A stretch of 64,000 nt of DNA. Origin: Antitrichia curtipendula (taxonomy: Eukaryota > Streptophyta > Bryopsida > Hypnales > Leucodontaceae). The notes beneath the pieces were generated by a model, which worked only from the letters and a program-made list of their open reading frames with translations, searched no databases and was not told the DNA's origin. A program made the position numbers and the translations under genes. The stretch lies in the NCBI GenBank assembly GCA_951230915.1, contig OX579636.1:40055912-40119911 (forward strand), in the 5' to 3' direction. This document shows positions 14,190 to 64,000 of the stretch, one piece after another; positions within the stretch are counted from its first letter, which is position 1, and each line of letters opens with the position of its first letter.

Positions 14190-14940
14190 TTAACCCCTTT
14201 AGGAGAAAAAACTGCGTTTTTTGGCAACATAGCGATTTTGGGCAGCTTGCTATGAATGGAGTTCTTAATATTTTTTTTTGAAAATTTCACCAAACATGTG
14301 CCCCTAGGAGTAGCTTTAGGGTCCAACAATTTTCAAAACTTTTGACTACATTGTTAAAAAGTTATAACATGATATGTGATTTTCATTGCTCAGCGGGCAG
14401 CTTGGGCAGCTCAACAAACTTCCTGAAAAATCACTTTAAGAAAAAGTTTTAAATTTAAATTGGTTCTTTAGGTTTATCTAAGAGTGGGAAGCTTTGAATC
14501 ATTCCATTTGGATTAATGCGTCAAAAGTTATGAGGACTTTTAGTTTGCGAGTAGGTATGGTTTTCATGGACTCCATACCTACCCGCAAACTAAAAATCCT
14601 CATAACTTTTGACTCATTAATTCAAATGGAATGATTCAAAGCTTCCCACTCTTAAATAAACCTAAAGAACCAATTTCAAATTTTTATTTTTTTTAAAAGT
14701 GATTTTCAAAGAAGTTTTTTTTGCTGCCCGGGCTGCCCGCCGAGCATTGAAAATGACATACCATGCAATAACTTTTGAACCGTGTAGTCAAAAGTCATGA
14801 AAATTGTTGGGCCTTAAAGATACTCCTTGGGCACTTCTTCTGTGAAAATTTGAGAGAAAATAAATAAAAATTTCATTTGTAGTGAGCTGCCCAAAATCGC
14901 TATGTTGTCAAAAAACGGTGTTTGGTCCTTTAGGGGTTAA
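14190..14940. mobile_element. TTAA-flanked foldback element, 370-bp inverted arms
   Basis: The left arm 14190-14560 and the right arm 14573-14940 are near-complete reverse complements around a 12-bp centre. Each end begins TTAACCCC. The flanks catCCAT-TTAA and TTAA-GATAGG can be compared with a paralogous unoccupied site at 16378-16388, which has one TTAA, so TTAA is the duplicated target. The arms are homologous to the left part of the 597-2505 element. It is non-coding. It was probably formed by head-to-head duplication of one half of a piggyBac-like MITE. Confidence 0.9.
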
Positions 14941-15085: not shown

Positions 15086-15230
15086 TATTGATTTTTGAAG
15101 TTTTTAGGAATTAGAAAAATTAATAAAATTACTTTAATTTTACCTATGACAACGACACAGGACACACTTGTAAATATTAGTGGACATTTGACCACTTGGC
15201 GCGTCTCCTTGTGGGACCGTGACTCTTCAA

Positions 15231-16173
15231 TTAACCCCTAAAGGCCAAAGGCCTTTTTCTGCCAAAAAACACCCAAAACTGCCACTTTTTTAGCAAAGAG
15301 TGAAAAAAAATTTAAAATGTTTTTTCTGCACATCTAACCGTAGGATCTTACACCTAACTAGTATGAAAATGTGTGGAAAAAATTTCAGAATTCTTGACCG
15401 CACAGATTGCAAGATATCTACGTTTAAAGTGAAAAAAACAAAATTTTCAGCACATTGTGGGACTGGATTTTTTGACTTTGAACATTTTTAACTTAAATTT
15501 TTTGCACTACAGAGTTTTGAGCTTTAAATCTTTGTAGTGGAGAATTGAGTTGAGAGTCTAATTAAAAAAAATCAAATCAAAAAAATATAATTTTCATTAT
15601 TAAAAAAATTGTTAAGGAGAAGTAGGTACAAGATAGAAGGAATATCTAAAGTATTCATATATTTTAGATGGAATTAAAATGCACTAATCCCTATGGTGAG
15701 ATTGTTCTATCAAGGTAAACTAAACCATGCAAAAAAAATAAAATTGAAAAACTTGAAAAATTGCATTTAGAAATGAATCCTACAAGTTGTTTTTTTCAAA
15801 AAGATGCTCTAACTGCCCAAAAAACAAGAATGTCCATAACTTTCTCATAACAAATTCAAATGAAATGAATCAAAGATTTCCAGATAGACAAAAATATAAT
15901 CTATGAGAAAAAAATACTAAAAAAAAATAAAAAAGTAAAAAGTAAAAAAAAAATTTGCTGCCCGCACTACCCCTCGTCCCCTGTTTTGAGCTTATTTGGT
16001 CATAACTTTTGTTACCGGGCACCGGTTGTGAAAAAAAAAATATTCCCACGTAGCTAATCAGCTTTTCTACCTCCAAAAAAAGTTTCAAAAAATCAGGAGA
16101 AAATTGCAGCCCGTAGGTACCTGCCCAAAAACGCATTTGTCCCCCGAAGGGACAATGGGCTTTTAGGGGTTAA
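15231..16173. mobile_element. TTAA-flanked piggyBac-like MITE
   Basis: This 943-bp non-coding element runs from TTAACCCCTAAAGGCC to CTTTTAGGGGTTAA. It is homologous over much of its length to 19618-20547: both contain the 'ccgtaggatctt' block, the 'gaccg.acagattg.gagatat' block, and a right end with GGGACAAT preceding the terminal repeat. It is AT-rich with many homopolymers and no coding frame. Confidence 0.85.
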
Positions 16174-17838: not shown

Positions 17839-19617
17839 ATGTAATCTTACTATTGTTGTTGAAGATTCATGAGGAGTGTGTGTTTTTATTATCTATCAAC
17901 AATCATTTTCTGTCTACCATATATCATTTTTTTGTAGACTAATTTTGTTGGCATTGTTTTGCTGCTATTTTCTAGTGGCCAATAATTAATTAAGCAGATT
18001 ATCTTTTCACGTAATTCCATTATTGCTATCATAGGTGAGAAAACGTAGAATGAGATATAATATGCAGTGAATGTGCTTCTACAAGCAATTCCAAAAGTCA
18101 TCTAATGATGGCCAACCTTAAAAACTGAGGTTTCTACAAAGAGGCAAAACATTGCTCAAGGTGGTCTCCTTCACTATCAATATATAGAATTTAAAAAACT
18201 TAGAAACAGAGACAACACAAGATTCACACATAAATTGAAACCTTTGATATCAAATGGACTTCTTTAATGTTCAATGTTATATGATTACATGATGTCAAAT
18301 GACACTCTGGAAGAATTGGAGTAACAAAAATTGGCTAATTATGAACCTCTATTGTTCCAGATTTACACTGTTGGACAAATAAAGATTAACAAAGCATCTT
18401 CAGGTTCAATTTTATACTTGCATGATCAACATCAAGAACAAAGTTTAGAAGGACTATCCCTGCTTGGCTAGAATATCTTCTATATTTTAGGTCTACTCAA
18501 AGGGAGGCAATCTATTCCTAATCATCCTTCCATTCTAGCAACATAGGGTGGTATAATTATGGTACATTAATACGCGGTTCTAGCATATTATGATTGGCCA
18601 CAAGACTCTCAATATCCTTGGTGGATTTTGCAATTAGCCCTTGGTTGAAAATAGAAAGGTCTATATAACTAGTATGAGCGGAATATAATCTTTAGCTAAA
18701 ATATTCATATTAATTATATTTTAAAAAATAAAATCTAAAAAATTATAGAAACCTTATGAACCCTATTTTTGCACATAGAAAAATTTTCCTTCTATTGAAA
18801 CTTGCGTTGGAGATGTGTGTATTTGCTTACATGGTCAAAAATAGGTTGCCTCCCTTAGTTCTAGTTCTCAAAAGCTTTTAACCATGCTGTGATCGTGTAT
18901 TAGCAGGCACAAATGGTTGAATACCTTATAAATATGATTGTTTTTCATTGTTCATAACATTCAATTACAGTGGACTGCCTTTCCTTGGACAAAATGTTGT
19001 TGAAAATTCCACTTCCATTAGTAGCTAAGAGGACATATGTCAAGAATTGTCAGAACTGCAGTGATTGCGTTGTGTAAAGTTAGCATTACAAATGTTACAT
19101 TGGACGTTATTAATAACAAAAAAACACAAGTTGTTTTATTTGATGTCCACAAAAATTTGTCTTCTAAAATCATGAAAACATTACATAACAACACGGGGGG
19201 TTTATGGGGCTTGGAGGGGCTTGAGAAGGGGCTTTAGGGTGGATTTTCAAATGGCTACGCCGGGAAAGAACTTTGCATAGTTGAGCAAAAAGAGCTGTTG
19301 GGGGAGAAATCTCGATTTTTTGAAAAAAAATTGACAAACTTGAAGACATTGGTGTTGTTCATTTTACACACTGGAATTCAATGACATTGATTACAAGGCA
19401 ACTTACAAAACTTACATAAGTTTTGTAAGTTGCCATATAATGTACCCCACCCCTGCAAGTGGTGGCAGCCATTACTGTAAAATCCGACAACAAGAGCATA
19501 AACTATCAATGTAAATTGTCTTCTTGGAACTCAAAGTAGTAGCCAAAATTGCAATTTGTTGTAACTACACACACTTCAAGCTACAAACTCAATGCAAATA
19601 GGCAAAATTTACAACTA
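17839..19617. other. Decayed repeat-derived DNA, no clear gene
   Basis: It is AT-rich with scattered stops. One stretch near 18285-18470 reads with a single stop over about 60 codons on the plus strand (including LANYEPLLFQIYTVGQIKINK-like text and ASSGSILYLHDQHQEQS). This could be another captured coding scrap, but I do not recognise it. The open frames 17889-18101 (-) and 19037-19237 (+) match nothing I know. Confidence 0.4.
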
Positions 19618-20547
19618 TTAACTCCTAAAGGCCCAAGGTCATTTTTCTATCAAAAAACACTCAAAACTGCCATTTTTGTTGTGTTTACCAATGAAAAAAA
19701 TAGAATTTAACCATAGGATCTTGTACTATACTTGCTTGAGATCATGTGGTAAAAGTTTCATGGAGTTTGACCGTACAGATTGGGAGATATTAGCATTCAA
19801 AGTTGGAAACAAAAATAAATTTGAACACTAGCCTGCAATTTCAAGTGACTTTGACTGCCATTTGTAAAAAAATTGCACTATGGACTTTAAATTTAAAATT
19901 CAATGTGATGAAGAATTGAGTTGAAAATCTAGGAATTTATTTATTTTTAAACAAAAAAACACACTTGATTTTCATTCTTTAAAAAATTGTTAAGTAGAAT
20001 TAGGTTCAAGATTGAAAGAAAAACTAAATCATTAATAACTCTAAGATGAAACTGAAATACAATAATTCCAATGGTGAGATTGTCTTAACAAACAAATATA
20101 ACCTTATCAAACATTTTTTTTTGAAAAATTATGAATTGCATTTTGAAATTGCATTTTGAAATGAATTATGTAAGTTATTTTTTTAAGAAGATATTTAGAT
20201 TGCCCCCAAAACAAGATTGTTCATAATTTTCACATCACTATCCCAAATGGAATGAATCAAAGCTTCACATTTAGACAAAAATATGATCTATAAATGAAAA
20301 AAGTAAAAATAATTAAATTTCAAGTTTTTGTGGATTTCTTTTTCTGCCCAATGATTTGAAAATTATGTTTAGGATGACATAACTTTTGCTCCCAGGGACC
20401 AGTTGAAAAAAAATTATATTACTACAAAGCTAATAAATTTTTCTATCTTATAAGAAAGTTTTAAAAAGTTTCATTAAAAATTGAAGTCACAAGAACCTGC
20501 CTGAAATTTATTGTCCCTTGAGGGGACAATAGGCCTTTGGAGGTTAA
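19618..20547. mobile_element. TTAA-flanked piggyBac-like MITE next to transposase relic
   Basis: This 930-bp element runs from TTAACTCCTAAAGGCC to GGCCTTTGGAGGTTAA. The inverted ends are slightly diverged from the CCCC consensus at the fifth to seventh bases. It is homologous to 15231-16173 in order and spacing of blocks. It ends 283 bp before the piggyBac transposase relic begins and may have inserted into, or replaced, the 5' part of that larger element. Confidence 0.8.
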
Positions 20548-20829
20548 TAAAAATGTAGGAAGAAGGGTGCTCCTACTTTGAAGACCTTCACTTCCTGTGC
20601 ATAGTTTGTGAGGAAATACTACAACTTCGACACACTCTCTCATCATTATTTTGAAGCAAAAGGCCAAAGACGGGACGTCAAATGCTGACACCAACAAAGT
20701 CCACTCAATCCCAAGCTATGACAATAGACATTGTTGCAACTCTAAGAGAAATCATTAGAAACTATGATTCCAATTTTGTGAATAGTCAAGAAGCTATTAA
20801 GGAGAGGGGGAGGGAGTCTAGCTATGAAG

Positions 20830-21756
20830 ATCTCTATTTCAAAGTTTGTTTTGAATTTTGAATTTTATTGTGGGAAGTCTATAAGAGTAGAAGGAGCGCT
20901 TGCAACTCAGGATTCTAGATTAGTGCATAATGTGGTGTTGAATTTATTAGTGGACCATGAAAGAAAGGGGCATGTCAAAATTTTAGATAACTATTTTATT
21001 TTTATTGGGCTATTCAAGAGTTTATTGGAGAAAGGCACTTATGCCACAAGAACTTTACGCATGAATTGGATAGGAATACCATTGGTATTGAAGAATACTA
21101 AATCTTTTGCTTTGGAGTGCTCAAGAGACACTGGATTGGTGTATGCATGATTCAAGAACCATGAGCTATGTTGTTTGGAAGGATAAGTAGCTAGTGCTTT
21201 TACTTTCTACACATGGTCCACCTATTCAATTTCCAATGGAATTTCTTGTAGTCATTGTACTTTGAAGGAATGGTGCAACAAGGGAGCAGATCCAGACTTG
21301 GAATATACAACTTATATGTGTAGTGTCGACGTTGCAGACCAATTGCGTGCTTCACATTGCTTTCAAAACTGGTCCCACAAATGATGGCACAGTGTTTTTT
21401 TGTTTCTATTAGACATGACAGTGGTGAACATGTTTGTCATGTATGTTCATGAGTGCAACAATGGTGAAGAGTGGCGAAGGCCAATGAAGCATCTCCAATT
21501 TTGTGTTCAATTATGCAAAATTCTTTTACATGATTGGAGAGAACAAAATCATGAAGAACCAAGAAGTCGTAATAGATATTGTTACTCCTCAACCTCATGT
21601 TTGAGTGGAAATTGTGTAATACGGCCTTATACATTTTGCCAAAATTGCAATGACAAATATATGTGCAATTGTAAGGGATGTTTTGAAAGATATTATGATA
21701 ATCTTCATCCAAGAAGGGAAAAAAGTGTGAGTGATTTTTTATTTTTTCATGTTTAG
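20830..21756 (+). pseudogene. piggyBac transposase relic (DDE_Tnp_1_7)
   Basis: Reading across frameshifts and stops, the homology is continuous in the expected order. KFVLNFEFYCGKS corresponds to the YVxxxxxYxGK strand of piggyBac transposases. GKGHxxxxDN is represented by RKGHVKILDNYF, with the second catalytic Asp. LLEKGTYATRTLRMNWIGIP follows, then VVWKDK-stop-LVLLLSTHGPP. VDVADQLRA carries the third Asp region, NWSHK-stop-WHSVFLFLLD is next, and MTVVNMFVMYVHE ends the RNase-H fold. The C-terminus keeps a Cys-rich zinc-binding domain (CQNCNDKYMCNCKGCFERYYD). The N-terminal part with the first catalytic Asp is not found upstream. At least two in-frame stops and several frame changes show it is dead. 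piggyBac has been reported rarely in plants to my knowledge, so this relic is notable. Confidence 0.88.
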
Positions 21757-22809
21757 TATTTTTGGGAAGGTACGTGGTACTAGCCATTTATAGAGCATTG
21801 TGGATTTTTTTAACAACTAGCAATTTGCTTAAATCCTATCAACAAATAATATTGATTTAATATTATTGAAGTATGAGGCTTAAATAAGGTTTTTTAATTG
21901 AATAGGATGGCATTTAGGAAGTCGATCTTCCTTCCTACTTTGCCTTATTCATAAAGGAAAATAGAAGAAAATAGATTGTGGTAGAGGTTGAAGTAGCATA
22001 AGTTTATAAGTTTTAATATTTTTTTCTTTCAAAAAATCCTACTTGTAGAAAACATGGGATTATATCATTTTACTATTTGGAATTATAAAGTAATAAATTT
22101 CGACTATGCAAGAAATTTCTAAAAGTTGGCTAGTGAATAGTTGTTTTCATTTACCACTTTCTATTGCAGGCCCATTTAGAATAAGTTAGACATCTCAGTT
22201 GCATCTAAAATTTTGCATGATTGAAGCTAACATCATATACTTGTGAAAACCCAAAATCCTCATTGTTGTGTTGAGAAAAAAATTTCAGCCAAGGGGGCTC
22301 AAGGTCTATTGTCCCCTTCGGGCAGGCTGGCAGGGCCCCCAAATTTTTTTGGAGGAATTTCATATAATCATATGTTATAATCTTTCAAGCCACATGGTCA
22401 AATGGGCTGAATTTTTTTCACACATTGACTTACTTGTATATTACACTTTTGTATGGTTGGAATCTTTTTTTTAAAAACGATTTTTGATTTTGGACAAAGC
22501 ATCAAAAAGTGGCAATTTTTTACTTTCTCTCTTCTGTCAATATTCTTTCAAGCCATCAATTTTTTTTCATTAATTTGCTTGCCAATGTTATTTGTGGTGT
22601 AGTTGTTGAATTGTTGCCTAAATTTGTGTTTGAAAGACCTTTCTAAGATCATGTCAATTAATTGGAAGACACTTAATTGGTGTAATTGATTGGAAAGAAA
22701 ATTAGAAGGATCTGTGGATGTGAATCTTTTAGCCAAGAAATAAATTCCTTAAAAACATGTATGCTTCAATAATCTAAAAATCTCAATCAATTTTGACTTT
22801 TTATCCATA
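21757..22809. other. 3' flank of the piggyBac relic
   Basis: The interval 22178-22455 is homologous to 1425-1700 inside the TTAA element 842-1793: the shared order is ttagaataagct/tt, catatacttgtga/atga, ttataatctttcaa, gggctgaatttttttcac and gtatggttg. This fits the right non-coding part of the same transposon family. No clear GGGGTTAA right end is found, so the end is eroded. No gene is seen. Confidence 0.65.
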
Positions 22810-24732
22810 CACTACAATAAAATGGGTGTTTTATGACTACAATATGTGATTGCAATAAATCACAAAATTTCCAAATATGACTCCTCGGGGAGTTCACTTA
22901 GAGTATCCATTACAAACCACGTGCGAACAAAACTTTAGACCCCTATATACTTTTTGAATTTTGAATTTTTTGAATTTTTATATATGAATAGATTTTCCTA
23001 CTTTGAAAATTTATGTTTTGAATTATTGATATTTTTATTTGTTAATAATAATTAGTTACAAATTTTTGAACTAAAAAGATACACTATATAACTAAAAAAT
23101 AACTTTCACACTCCTATATTATATATGAAAAAATGAACAAAAAATTCCTAAAATAATTCTCTATTGAAAGCTCATTTTGAGTTGAATATTGATTCAATGG
23201 TCATCTAAATGTGTTCTCTATAATTATTTGAGTTGAAAAACATGCTATTTTAGTTCATTTTCAACTTCTTCTAGAAATCATTTCATATTTTATTTGAGTT
23301 GGAAAATTTGGCAATAGAAACCTATAGTCATCATTAAACAATGCTCAAATTTTTAGGTTGAAATTGTAGTTTATTAGAAACCACTTGTTCACACGTGGTT
23401 TGTTGTAGTAGAACTAAGTGTACCCCCGAGTATGACTCATGCAAGAATCACTATAGATGATGTGCAATATGTGTGCATTCAATCATTACCAAATAGTCGC
23501 TTTGAATATGAGTCATATTTATAATTACGATGGTTGGAGCCTATAAAAGGCCATATAGTTTGCCAATGAAGCTTATGTGTTGATTGGCTTTGGAGGTTTG
23601 ATTTTTTCTGCACGAGCAAAGAGAAAAAAGCCTACGTGGCATGTGACTTTGTGTAGTCATACTATTCAACTAACATGGAATATGACTACAATGAGTCACA
23701 TTTTTGGTCGACATGGCCATGCACGCAGAATGTTATTATAAGTTGATATGACATGTGACTTTGTACAATCATATTTTTTACTAGTATGGAATATGACTCT
23801 CGTGAGTCATATATTTGGTTTACATGCATGTCATTGGTGATTTTGTGATTGAATCAATCATGTTTTGGGAAGTGTAGACTCGTAGAGTCACATTTTGGAC
23901 AGGACTATGAATATTATATAACTACAACCAATTATATTTTGGCCTATGTATATTGTGAAATATAATTAAAGTAAGTGATATTCCAAATGATTGGGAACAC
24001 GTGTTTTAGATTTGTGTGCACAATTTGTTATTGACGTGATTGAGGTGATTGAGGTCCAAAATAGCTTCAATCATAAACTACACACATTTTCTATACATTT
24101 TAAATGGACATGCCGTATTGCATTCATGCATCAATATGGCTTAGCATTTGAATAAAAAGCTCAATGAAGTTAAAAATAAGTACATATGATTTTAGAAATG
24201 CATAAGAGACAATCATATTGGAGAAAAAACCTTGTGAGAGGGAATGTGACTCTCTTCAATAACATTTATTAGTCACTAGCACCAAACATATTATAATGAG
24301 TATATTTATATATGCTTGTAGGGCCTATATTCTTTACATTATTTTAAAGATGTTGGCTCTAGTGTGTTGCAAGTAGCCTCCAACGACTTCGTTCCAACTT
24401 TCAGTGTTTGCATGTACAATCAAGGAAGTTAATTTTTGGTGAATGAATAATATAGGTCAATCTTCAAAGATTTACAGCAACATGAAATCTGTAGCACAAG
24501 TTTAGGGTAAGAAAAAATGAAAACAACTATATTTTTAAAACTCATTAAAAAATATGATGAACGAATAACTAAAATTCAACTTCAAAATGGTTTTAAAATT
24601 AGCTATTTTATCCGGTATAACTTGTCCATAATGATTGAATTTTTCAAACTTAATATTAATTATTTGCATCCTCCTAAATGACAAAAAATATAGTCATAAA
24701 TATAGCCATTGATGGTCATTTTTCTACTAGTG
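22810..24732. mobile_element. CACTA (EnSpm)-like non-autonomous element
   Basis: The left end is CACTACAATAAAA and the right end is the inverse of CACTAGTAGAAAAA, the terminal signature of plant CACTA elements. The interior from about 22830 to 23960 carries many direct and inverted copies of a TATGACT/AGTCATA core, as expected for subterminal transposase-binding repeats. No transposase coding is seen. The 3-bp flanks do not match (ATA against TAT), so the boundaries are probable, not proven. It is interrupted by the MITE at 22884-23430; without it the element is about 1.37 kb. Confidence 0.7.
22884..23430. mobile_element. hAT-like MITE, 8-bp target duplication, copy 1
   Basis: This 547-bp element begins CTCGGGGAGTTCACTTAG and ends CTAAGTGTACCCCCGAG. 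Longer imperfect inverted repeats include the ACCACGTG core. It is flanked on both sides by TATGACTC, an exact 8-bp direct repeat. An 8-bp TSD is typical of hAT elements. Copy 2 is at 34906-35467. It lies within the CACTA-like element; because TATGACTC resembles the host's subterminal motif, chance identity of the flanks cannot be fully excluded. Confidence 0.75.
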
Positions 24733-34905: not shown

Positions 34906-35467
34906 CACGGGGAGTTCACTTAGAGTGTCCATTAGAAACCACGTGCAAACAAAACTTTAGACTCCCTATGTACTTTTTCAATGTTAAATTAAATTAAATA
35001 AATCAAAATATGAACAAATTTTCCTACTTTGAATGTTTATGTTTTGAATTATTGATATTTTTATTTGCTAAATATTTAGTTACAAACTTTTGAAGTAAAA
35101 GATACACTGTAGAACTAAAAAATAACTTTCACACCCCTATATTATATAAAAAAAGATTGTCTAAAAAATTAACAAATTTTTTCTAAAAATAACTCTCTAT
35201 TGAAAGCTCATTTTGATTTGAATATTAATTCAATGGTCATCTAAATGTGTTCTCTATAATTATTTGAGTTGAAAAACATGCCATTTTAGTTCATTTTCAA
35301 CCTCTTCTAGAAACCATTTTATATTTTGTTTGAGTTGAAAAATTTGGCAATAGAAATCTATAGTCATCATTAAACAATGCTCAAAATTTTAAGTTGAAAT
35401 TTTAGTTTATTAGAAACCACTTATTTGCACGTGGTTTGTTGTAGTAGAACTAAGTGCCCTCCCTAAG
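34906..35467. mobile_element. hAT-like MITE, copy 2
   Basis: This 562-bp copy is homologous to 22884-23430 over its whole length, including CGGGGAGTTCACTTAGAGT at the left, the ACCACGTG inverted cores and TTGTAGTAGAACTAAGTG at the right. The flanks CTTTGCCA and CTTTGTCA form an 8-bp duplication with one mismatch, supporting an independent insertion with 8-bp TSD. It is non-coding. Confidence 0.78.
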
Positions 35468-43119: not shown

Positions 43120-46100
43120 ATGGCGGACATGATAGGACGTGCCGTCTGTAGAGCTTCAAGTCCGTCGTTAGGTTTCGTGGTCGCACCCTCCTTACGCTTT
43201 CCTCAAAGTTTCTCCTTAAAGAGCCAGTCATGTACGAGATTTCGTAACAATTTTGGGTTGCGTTCTGTGACGGTGGGAGGTGCGGGAGTTTCAGCTCGGC
43301 AGGTGCAAACTCTCGCGTCCGATTCCAGTAGCCCTGCTCTTGATGAGGAAGTTGGACAGAACAGAACCGGAATTGAGGCGCGGGAAAATGTAGAAGAGAT
43401 TGGAGACCGTCGTGAGAATGGCGTCAGTCAGTTGCGTGAGCTCTGTGCGGGCAAGGTGCCGGACTACTTGCTAAGAAGGTAGTGCTATTGTGCCTTCAAA
43501 ATCTAATTGCAAGTATCAGGGTTTAGACTGTCATCATGTCTCAAATTCTCTTTGCAAGTGCCACGGTTTAGGGTTTAGGATTGGTAATGCCATTGTGCCT
43601 CAAAATCTCCTTGCAAATATCAGGGTTTAGTGTTTAGGGTTTAGGGTTTGGTTGTGCTATTATGCCTCGAAAATCTCTTTGCAAGTATCAAGGTTTAGAG
43701 AGTCATTATGCCTCAAAATCTCTTTGCAAGTAAAGTATCAGGGTTTAGGGTTTAGGATTGGTAGTGCAATTATGCCTCTAAATCTCCTTGCAAGTATCAG
43801 GGTTTAGAGTTTAGTAGTGCTGTTATACATCAGAATTTCTTTGCAAGTATGTGCCTGTCTCAGGGTTTAGGGTTTAGCTAATTAGCGGTGAAACGCAATG
43901 CAGGGCTGAAGAGTTGGGATTCTCCGTGCCCACCCATGTACAAGAGGAGGCATTGCCAATCCTTCTGTCTGGTCGTGATTGCATTCTGCAAGCACAGGTA
44001 CTCAACCTTCCACAAGCCATCTTTGATGAGATCCTATGTTAAGCCTCAATTTTGCAGAAGTTATTTGGGAGAATGCATCACTTTTGAACCGAATAAAACT
44101 CAAATTTTAGGTCTTTTGGTTGGAGTTTTGACTTTCTTTCTCTAATCAATTCAATCTTCGTCTTTCGGGCCACGAATTGGATTGGTGAAGCCCCTAGGAA
44201 CTTCCGCAAAAGTCCAAAAGTTTTAATGTACATTTGTATCAGTTTATTTGAGCATGTTACACTTTGTTTTCTCAGTAACTTTAGAAAGGATTTGTCTCAT
44301 GTATCTCACGTTGTTCCTGGTCTCTCTATGGAACCGCAAGAGTTTTAGGTTGTTGAAAAGTGATCGACGTAGCTTCTGTTTGTATTCTCCACAGACTGGC
44401 TCTGGGAAGACCTTAGCATACCTCCTGCCAATCTTTGCAAAGGTGCTACCTGAACGGGCTGCCGTGCAAGCAATTGTGGTTGTTCCTACTCGAGAGTTGG
44501 GTATGCAGGTATGGTCTCTCTCCTAGACCCTAAACCCTAACCCCCCTAAACCCTAAACCCCTTAAACCCTTTGCAAATTTATTTTTTCTCTCTCTTGACA
44601 TGATTATCAGAAGCATTCGGAGCAACTTTGTTTTAAATTTATTTTTGGTCGCCTAGGTGGCCAAAGTTGCACGGAAGTTAGCGGGGAAGGGAAACTCTGA
44701 AGAGGATGGCAAAGCGGCCAAGGAGAAAGGAACAGTGATGGTGATGGCCTTATTGGAAGGTGGCACTTCCAGTCGCCAAAAAGCTTGGCTCAAGGTGTGA
44801 TCTTCTATCTTGTTTTATGGGGCTAATTTTATTTATCCCTTCAGTGTTTGTTTTGCTGCAAGTCCTGGAAATCAACTATTCCAAAGCGTGCAATTAGTTT
44901 AGGCCATACGTTCGAATTGCAACGATGATTTCCAAAATAAAGTACTTCAATATTATTTAGAGCAAAATGTGCTAGTATAAATTTGTGAACACAATTCGAA
45001 ATTTTGTTACGAGTGAAACATGACACCAATCTATAAAATAGGATGTAAAGTCCAGTAATTTCATTTCTTGGTGTATTCTGTACTGAGTTGCTGCTTTTCA
45101 CTCCTGACACTGAGGTTGCTATGTCAGGCGGAGCCTCCTCAAATTGTTGTTGGAACGTTGGAACGTATAGCGCGCATGATTGAAACCAAAAATCTTCGCA
45201 CCAATGCTGTCAGCACCATTGTCATTGATGAGGTACTCTCTCTGTCTCATAACATCTTCCTGCAACAGTATTTGTTCATGCGTATAATATTTTCTTGGAG
45301 GCTAGTGCACAATTTTTCACTTGATAGTGGAATTGCTGTTTTATTATTGCGAGATTCTCGGTCATTCGTTTCCGACTGAAGCCGTTGTTTATATAAAATG
45401 GTGTTATGGTGACAATATGAATTTTTTTAACTCGTGCTTCTGAATCGGCCTAATCCACACTACAGTTATTGGCGATTTCGATTACGAAAACTCATTGTAG
45501 GTGTTCTTAAGTTACGTGTGAGCTGGAATAATAAGCTTCTTGTTTTTTTTAAGAACTGTCGGGCACCAGTGGTTTGTTTACTTAAACAGGATGTGTGGTT
45601 TATGCAGAACAGGTGGATGCTATGATGGGAGCTGCAAAAGAAGGTGGTCATCTTCAGAAGTTGCTGAGTGACTACACCCGCCCTCAACAACGTCAAACCA
45701 TACTTGCGAGCGCAACTATTCCTCAACATCGACGTTTCCTCAATGACTGCATTCAGAACAAGTGGGTCAAGGTATTTCATTCTATTCACCATCTAAGCGC
45801 CTTTTCAATATTTTCAATAGTGGAAATTGATCAGATCTAAACTTTAGTTAGTTTATTCAGCCTATGTTCAAAATTTTGAGATAAGATTAGTGAAATTTTT
45901 GGGAGATTTACAGCTATGGAGAGTTCTTTCGGGACAAGAGCCAAATCTGTTGAGATCAAATTTTTGTTACTATGCCGTAAAATCTAATGCAATTCAAAAT
46001 GAGAGGTCTTAGACCACCATAAACGACAACAGCCATTCCTAGTTGTATTCAGAGATGAGTCACCACATATGTTCAGTCAAGTCATGCTTAGACCAATTGC

Positions 46101-63541: not shown

Positions 63542-64000
63542 TTAACCCCTAAAGTTCCGTGACTATGTTTTCACTGAAAACGCTCAAGAACTGCCGTTTT
63601 TAGTACAAGTACCAAATTTTTGAAAAAAACTTTTTTTTGACTCATGTAACCGTAGGATCTTGTAGTATGCTGACTTGAGAATATGTGGTAAAAATTTCAG
63701 AAATTTCCACCACGTGGATTGCAAGATATAACCATTCAAAATCACTGAAATCGTTTTTTGACCCCTGCAAAAAACCAGGCAGCTGCACTTCAAAAGCTCA
63801 CTTTTTTATGAAAAAATGTCCAAAATGGTGGTGCTTCTTTGGATTCTTTTTCCTAAACAAGTTGGCTACATGCTTGAAAAATTTCACATCATTTGGAATT
63901 GTACAACATATGAGAAAAAAATAGTAAGTAGAATGAAGTAGAGAATGATTCAAAATACTAAATTGTTAAAAATTTAGATACGAAATTGAAAAATGCCAAT
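63542..64000. mobile_element. Partial TTAA-flanked piggyBac-like MITE (cut by window end)
   Basis: It starts TTAACCCCTAAAG and matches the complement of 2505 down to about 2050 nearly block for block (gactatgttttcac, aaaactgcc, taccaaatttttgaaaaaaa, ccgtaggatcttgtagtatgctg-type block, attgcaagatat). It is the same subfamily as the outer element 597-2505. The other end lies outside the window. Confidence 0.88.

Follow-up and report, generated by a model that had tools for sequence, protein, structure and literature searches.

The window, the whole stretch of 64,000 nucleotides that was analysed, corresponds to bases 40,055,912-40,119,911 of contig C4 (46.9 Mb) in an assembly of 400 Mb and 303 contigs. 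It contains genes for SF3B3 (RSE1 propellers and CPSF_A), a CAF1C_H4-bd protein similar to RBBP4/GRWD1 and coatomer epsilon, as well as a TORTIFOLIA1-like gene in two exons that each fall below the Pfam cut-off alone. The window gave no hit in Rfam and tRNA scans. Several repeats are present. Two copies of a 0.54-kb element (22886-23420 and 34908-35456) are 88% alike, with inverted ends (CTCGGGG...CCCCGAG) that are imperfect; the first copy is surrounded by what appears to be a duplication of 8 bp, TATGACTC. The element is a MITE, possibly of the hAT type. Inverted copies that are 80% alike lie near both window ends (2039-2505 and 63542-64000). A self-inverted repeat of ~750 bp at 14190-14940 (82%) has pieces that recur at 596-841, and a tandem array rich in GGTTTAGGGTTTAG motifs (43478-43877) directly follows an open frame.

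A decayed, 5'-deleted piggyBac element occupies 20832..22560 on the + strand; its right limit is approximate because the TTAA and the terminal inverted repeat (TIR) are too mutated to fix it. All peptide blocks quoted in the initial annotation were found in the translation of the + strand at 20830-21756, and in the piggyBac order that had been described. The transposase remnant runs through three frame pieces. The first (20833..21117, from profile alignment) carries the second catalytic Asp, equivalent to D346 of piggyBac, in codon 20986-20988. The second frame covers 21122..21289, with approximate limits, and contains the stops TAG 21188 and TGA 21263. The first frame resumes at approximately 21292 and continues to 21726, with the third catalytic Asp (D447 equivalent, codon 21328-21330) and a further stop, TGA 21382. 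A remnant of the C-terminal Cys-rich domain was placed at 21613..21696 by profile alignment with homologues. An intron that is read through may account for the residues past the GTGAGT at 21727, because the homologues P0001-P0003 also read N-V-S at this point and then continue with unlike sequence. Similarity does not end at 21756 but extends through non-coding DNA of the element to ~22,510-22,560. This 3' non-coding part (21757..22560) matches L056, L057, L061, L062, L071, L072 and L073, among other copies in the same genome. In the own-genome search, matches start at 20832-20837 and run out to 22,403-22,533, and by-eye alignment with the intact right end of its family puts the right end of the relic at ~22,553-22,560. 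A score or so more short genome matches were found for 0.25 kb of the 3' region (22068-22315), perhaps a non-autonomous derivative.

Joining the three frame pieces gives a read-through of 302 amino acids, which matches the Pfam family DDE_Tnp_1_7 (PF13843) with E=6.6e-20 (positions 168-347 of the 349-position profile). A match to this family is also obtained with the unmodified frame, its stops written as X (2e-15), and with the ORF at 20782-21147 by itself (5.9e-11); a Pfam search with the C-terminal ORF at 21385-21753 by itself matched no family. The match of the read-through to the piggyBac structure (PDB 6x67) is weak (E=0.0048). A frameshift-aware alignment of the relic with a profile of 45 homologues scored 502.8 bits over columns 257-571 of 578, compared with at most 24.0 bits in 12 mononucleotide shuffles and 19.1 bits for the reverse complement. 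Both the family search and the frameshift-aware alignment agree with the piggyBac assignment in the initial annotation.

The relic is heavily damaged. In addition to the three stops, the frameshift-aware alignment located two frameshifts, near 21112 and near 21299. The alignment starts only at column 257 of 578, so that about half of the protein is lost, and the region of D268, the first catalytic Asp, is deleted. Profile columns 1-258, the N-terminal half, had no convincing match anywhere in the window: the best score, 26.1 bits, was far off on the other strand, and the DNA directly upstream of the relic scored 21.1 bits, against a background of up to 20.7 bits in 15 shuffles of a 2-kb stretch. 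The initial annotation had described a gene killed by stops and frameshifts, with the second and third catalytic Asp kept and the part with the first one absent, and each of these points was borne out. It had also listed a C-terminal Cys-rich domain. A remnant of this domain is indeed present; it is degenerate, however, and alignment with the homologues shows that it has lost the final His and, in the first CxxC, the second Cys. The relic cannot make a transposase.

From three stops in 302 codons, we estimate that ~0.08 substitutions per site (95% range 0.016-0.23) have accumulated since release from constraint. At a neutral substitution rate of 7e-9 per site and year, as applied to vascular plants, this corresponds to ~11 Myr (2-33); an alternative rate of 2e-9 gives 39 Myr (8-114). 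The relic has an observed/expected CpG ratio of 0.29, compared with 0.38 and 0.35 for the flanking DNA and 0.90 and 0.74 for two host genes. The low ratio fits decay in a CpG-methylating genome, and deamination may have contributed to the decay of the relic. Such deamination is not specific to the relic, because CpG is low in the flanks too.

The ends of the relic itself show no recognisable TTAA or TIR. The best local pair in a TIR search around the relic scored 30, below the maximum of 47 in 200 shuffles. A longer, A/T-rich alignment near the relic, which scored 90 where 60 shuffles reached at most 82, was not accepted as a TIR, and an inverted motif at 20.5/22.3 kb was also rejected. A direct dispersed repeat, 67% alike, lies at 15230-16173 and 19617-20547, its second copy ending just left of the relic; pieces of it occur near other copies of the relic's family in either orientation (L056 and L069).

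When 20500-22400 was used as a query against the genome, 40 of 321 candidates were scored and 49 matches were obtained, one of them the window itself. The matches that cover the transposase part are 67-82% alike to the relic, and 10 of the first 20 matches begin at the equivalent of 20832-20837, the point at which the relic is truncated. L060 has the N-terminal coding part that the relic lacks, between a match to 20688..20820 and the homologue of 20833. The match to 20688..20820 (+ strand; L060:74-209, 70.8%) was seen in this one copy only, and the interval is tentatively a remnant of the 5' region to the left of an internal deletion. The arrangement in L060 tentatively suggests that this deletion took place between 20820 and 20833. 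Two members of the relic's family, L071 on C7 and L073 on C8, share 99% identity across 3,245 bp and retain the N-terminal half; their family has 67-68% DNA identity to the coding part of the relic. L073 has TTAA-CCCCTAAAGGACCG at both ends and is ~6.08 kb long, and only the right end was recognised in L071. The coding part of both is in two overlapping frames. Because both switch frame at the same place, a common frameshift, the pair may have spread from an already broken parent or been mobilised by another copy. Of the 49 matches, 20 loci were read, and none of these was recognised as a fully open copy of this family.

The identity of the host was examined with a tree of SF3B3 proteins. In this tree of 28 rows, a 10-row clade (100/99) includes the window sequence and is separate from the rows of lycophytes, ferns and flowering plants. 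This clade joins Marchantia and Riccia at a node with 93/88 support, below the star level of this midpoint-rooted tree, in which named moss and hornwort rows are absent. The tree supports a bryophyte host near the liverworts. The host is probably a moss. A contaminating animal, fungus or protist as the source of the relic is exceedingly improbable. Such a source would agree with the databank origins of the relatives: the 45 homologues and the best 120 of 519 matches all come from jgi, ena or lgn, with no named plant protein among them. Against this, the protein databank includes many named land plants, and transposases are often omitted from gene sets. Plant-type genes flank the relic on both sides within the window, the contig is 46.9 Mb long and piggyBac matches occur on each of C1-C10. 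Because of the flanking genes and the size of the contig, contamination is excluded in practice, and the relic lies, as had been proposed, in a real plant genome.

A search of the genome with PF13843 gave 907 candidate places, 116 of which were scored. All 116 domains were above the cut-off (5.1e-80 to 1.1e-69) and nearly all were full-domain; the same profile matched none of 14 control genomes, whose nature is unstated. By our own count, 72 of the 116 have no in-domain stop, a share that is biased upward because these are the best of 907 candidates and that does not represent the intact share of all piggyBac copies. Thirty loci were read; all 30 retain the equivalents of D268 and D447, and 29 retain that of D346. 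The Asp of an 'LAD' motif had been taken for D268, which made several families seem to lack the first catalytic residue; this reading was dropped because residue counting on the alignment with 6x67 puts D268 in 'T.DE', present in all 30. Eight of nine representatives have the Cys-rich pattern; L019 lacks one Cys, and the sequence examined for L002 ends before the domain. Pfam searches yielded no strong match to a zinc domain.

Grouped at 70% protein identity, the 30 loci fall into ten families, with a lowest pairwise identity of 31%. In a midpoint-rooted tree, 21 of them make up one clade (100/100 support) and the other nine are on the relic's side. The best matches of the 21-locus clade are 34.6-39.6% identical among 132 proteins fetched; nearer kin may exist, because these proteins were chosen as kin of the relic. 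The GC content is 44-53% in 27 of the 30 loci and ~27-34% in AT-rich intergenic DNA of the window. Seven open frames that were scanned have ~150-500 codons upstream of the DDE domain, with no further Pfam match above cut-off.

The ends of several families could be read. F1 is represented by two 5,318-bp copies, on C1 and C3 (L021 and L023), that are 99.8% alike. Each has the structure TTAA-CCCCTCAAAGCCC...GGGCTTTGAGGGG-TTAA with different flanks; the likeness ends precisely at the TTAA on both sides, and the DNA outside is unlike. The 13-bp inverted repeats (CCCCTCAAAGCCC) are perfect. The 17-bp end of F1 occurs 52 times in the genome (25 forward and 27 reverse), and a reversed control pattern does not occur in either orientation. 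Six inverted end pairs are 5,222-5,360 bp apart, of which two were read, and the remaining 40 ends are unpaired under the exact 17-bp pattern. Several solitary ends lie within ~160 kb of the end of a large contig (C1, C2, C5 and C7) or belong to small contigs, a hint that some of them are subtelomeric or unplaced. Copies of three other families have TTAA and imperfect, CCC-type repeats on both sides at two places each: F2 (L005/L017; 5.5 kb, 99.3-99.5% alike), in which the likeness continues three bases beyond the right TTAA, F3 (L002/L010; 98.4-98.6%), in which it continues one base beyond the left TTAA, and F4 (L001/L009; 5.2 kb, 97.5-98.0%). For F5 (L019/L028; 99.2% alike), the DNA read covers the right end only. 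L008, L020 and L027 are alike through nearly all of the DNA fetched, in which no element ends turned up, and some near-identical pairs could therefore be larger duplications. At 7e-9, the copies would have separated roughly 0.12 Myr ago in F1 and 0.4-1.8 Myr ago in F2-F5. To judge from near-identity at different sites, several piggyBac families in this genome look to have moved recently. The initial annotation had pointed to a genome-wide search for intact copies flanked by TTAA, and F1-F4 include TTAA-flanked copies, with both ends in two copies each. Its description of a merely once-active lineage was too modest, given 116 scored domains, 72 of them stop-free, and near-identical TTAA-flanked copies.

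Taken together, the relic is almost certainly a dead, internally or 5'-deleted piggyBac copy that decayed in a bryophyte genome with many piggyBac families, some of them recently moved. It still has two open stretches, 122 and 123 codons long, as might be expected if a domesticated piggyBac-derived gene had left pieces still in use by the host. We consider domestication very unlikely in view of the stops, the frameshifts and the loss of the N-terminal half. Moreover, the relic is changed in 17 of 101 columns that homologues conserve at >=80%; the six homologues compared have changes in 2-8 of 91-101 columns, but the columns were defined partly from these homologues.

A larger, though still minor, probability attaches to the idea that the relic was not broken in place and belongs to a non-autonomous deletion family that spread already without the N-terminal half. 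L056, 74% alike, likewise begins at the equivalent of 20837 without that half and has the 20001-20556 repeat upstream. L071 and L073 indicate that broken copies can spread, because they are 99% alike at two sites despite their common frameshift. On the other hand, at least eight loci (L057, L058, L060, L062, L067, L068, L071 and L073) run on into N-terminal coding sequence, and the left repeat occurs without piggyBac at 15230-16173 and in the opposite orientation in L069. We favor an internally or 5'-deleted copy that decayed where it lies, in a bryophyte, probably moss, genome carrying diverse piggyBac families. The local feature is an ordinary transposon fossil, and its setting is the interesting part.

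The present data establish superfamily membership, decay, copy number, the TTAA/TIR structure and near-identical copies at different sites. By analogy with piggyBac, living relatives of the relic would use a DDD (RNase H-like) transposase, Cys-rich at its C-terminus, to bind the terminal inverted repeats, excise the element and insert it at TTAA. This mechanism is inferred, as are the ages, deamination as a cause of decay and the moss identity of the host.

Among the DNA transposons of plants, surveys concentrate on hAT, Mutator, CACTA, PIF/Harbinger and Tc1/mariner; piggyBac is a transposon used for gene delivery. This kind of element is already known; the unexpected point is its place, a land plant rich in varied, recently mobile piggyBac. 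No report of piggyBac in a moss was recognised in a search of the open literature; one moss paper dealt with 'expression piggybacking', and the main text of a study on Physcomitrium transposons (PMC7466625) does not contain the word. Plants are named in passing among piggyBac hosts in passages of PMC3902484 and PMC10813416. In a passage on the assembly of the fern Ceratopteris richardii (PMC6890710), 1,230 PiggyBac annotations covering 122,417 bp are reported; this is piggyBac-like sequence in a land plant, given in that passage as a repeat tally without elements, ends or ages.

It seems somewhat more likely than not that bryophytes, or at least this one, harbor long-lived and still mobile piggyBac elements, in at least ten families (down to 31% protein identity) and with a 21-locus clade among the 30 loci to which none of the proteins found is closely related. 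In that case, piggyBac persists as a component of a land-plant genome, and the dead copy is its fossil edge. At least 116 piggyBac domains and near-identical TTAA-bounded copies in a bryophyte would widen the known host range, and native plant piggyBac systems would become available for testing. Whether the elements were retained vertically or entered land plants by horizontal transfer could be answered with genomes of mosses, liverworts and streptophyte algae.

Relatives of the relic also occur among unnamed piggyBac proteins in the databank. Its sister clade contains P0001 (60% identity) and P0196 (53%), which, unlike the relic, are open over the aligned part. The grouping of the relic with P0001 and then P0196 has support of 98/95 and 99/96 in one tree and 97/75 and 100/96 in a second. 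Scans of viral contigs, with P0001 and with the homologue alignment A1, and of prokaryote genome contigs gave no relative. Within the same genome, the C8 copy L073 preserves both element ends, whereas those of the relic are unrecognisable. Among known systems, the DDD core of piggyBac from Trichoplusia ni (PDB 6x67/6x68) and of piggyBat (PDB 9c0f) aligns with the profile of the 45 kin (6.5e-41 for 6x67 and 1.1e-36 for 9c0f). The predicted fold of the homologue P0011 (mean pLDDT 76) has the same two best matches, with Foldseek E values of 6.9e-23 and 2.6e-23, respectively. On the 6x67 alignments, D268 is in 'TIDE', D346 in 'DN.F' and D447 in 'GVD'; D268G is used as a catalytic mutant in a passage of PMC9499001. 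The TTAA target and the CCC-type TIRs of the copies in this genome are further likenesses to piggyBac and piggyBat, and the Cys-rich pattern at the C-terminus, degenerate in the relic, may be another. The differences are an identity of 22-23% in the structural alignment of P0011, a plant host, elements of about 5.2-6.1 kb and, in the relic itself, a dead transposase gene without the first Asp.
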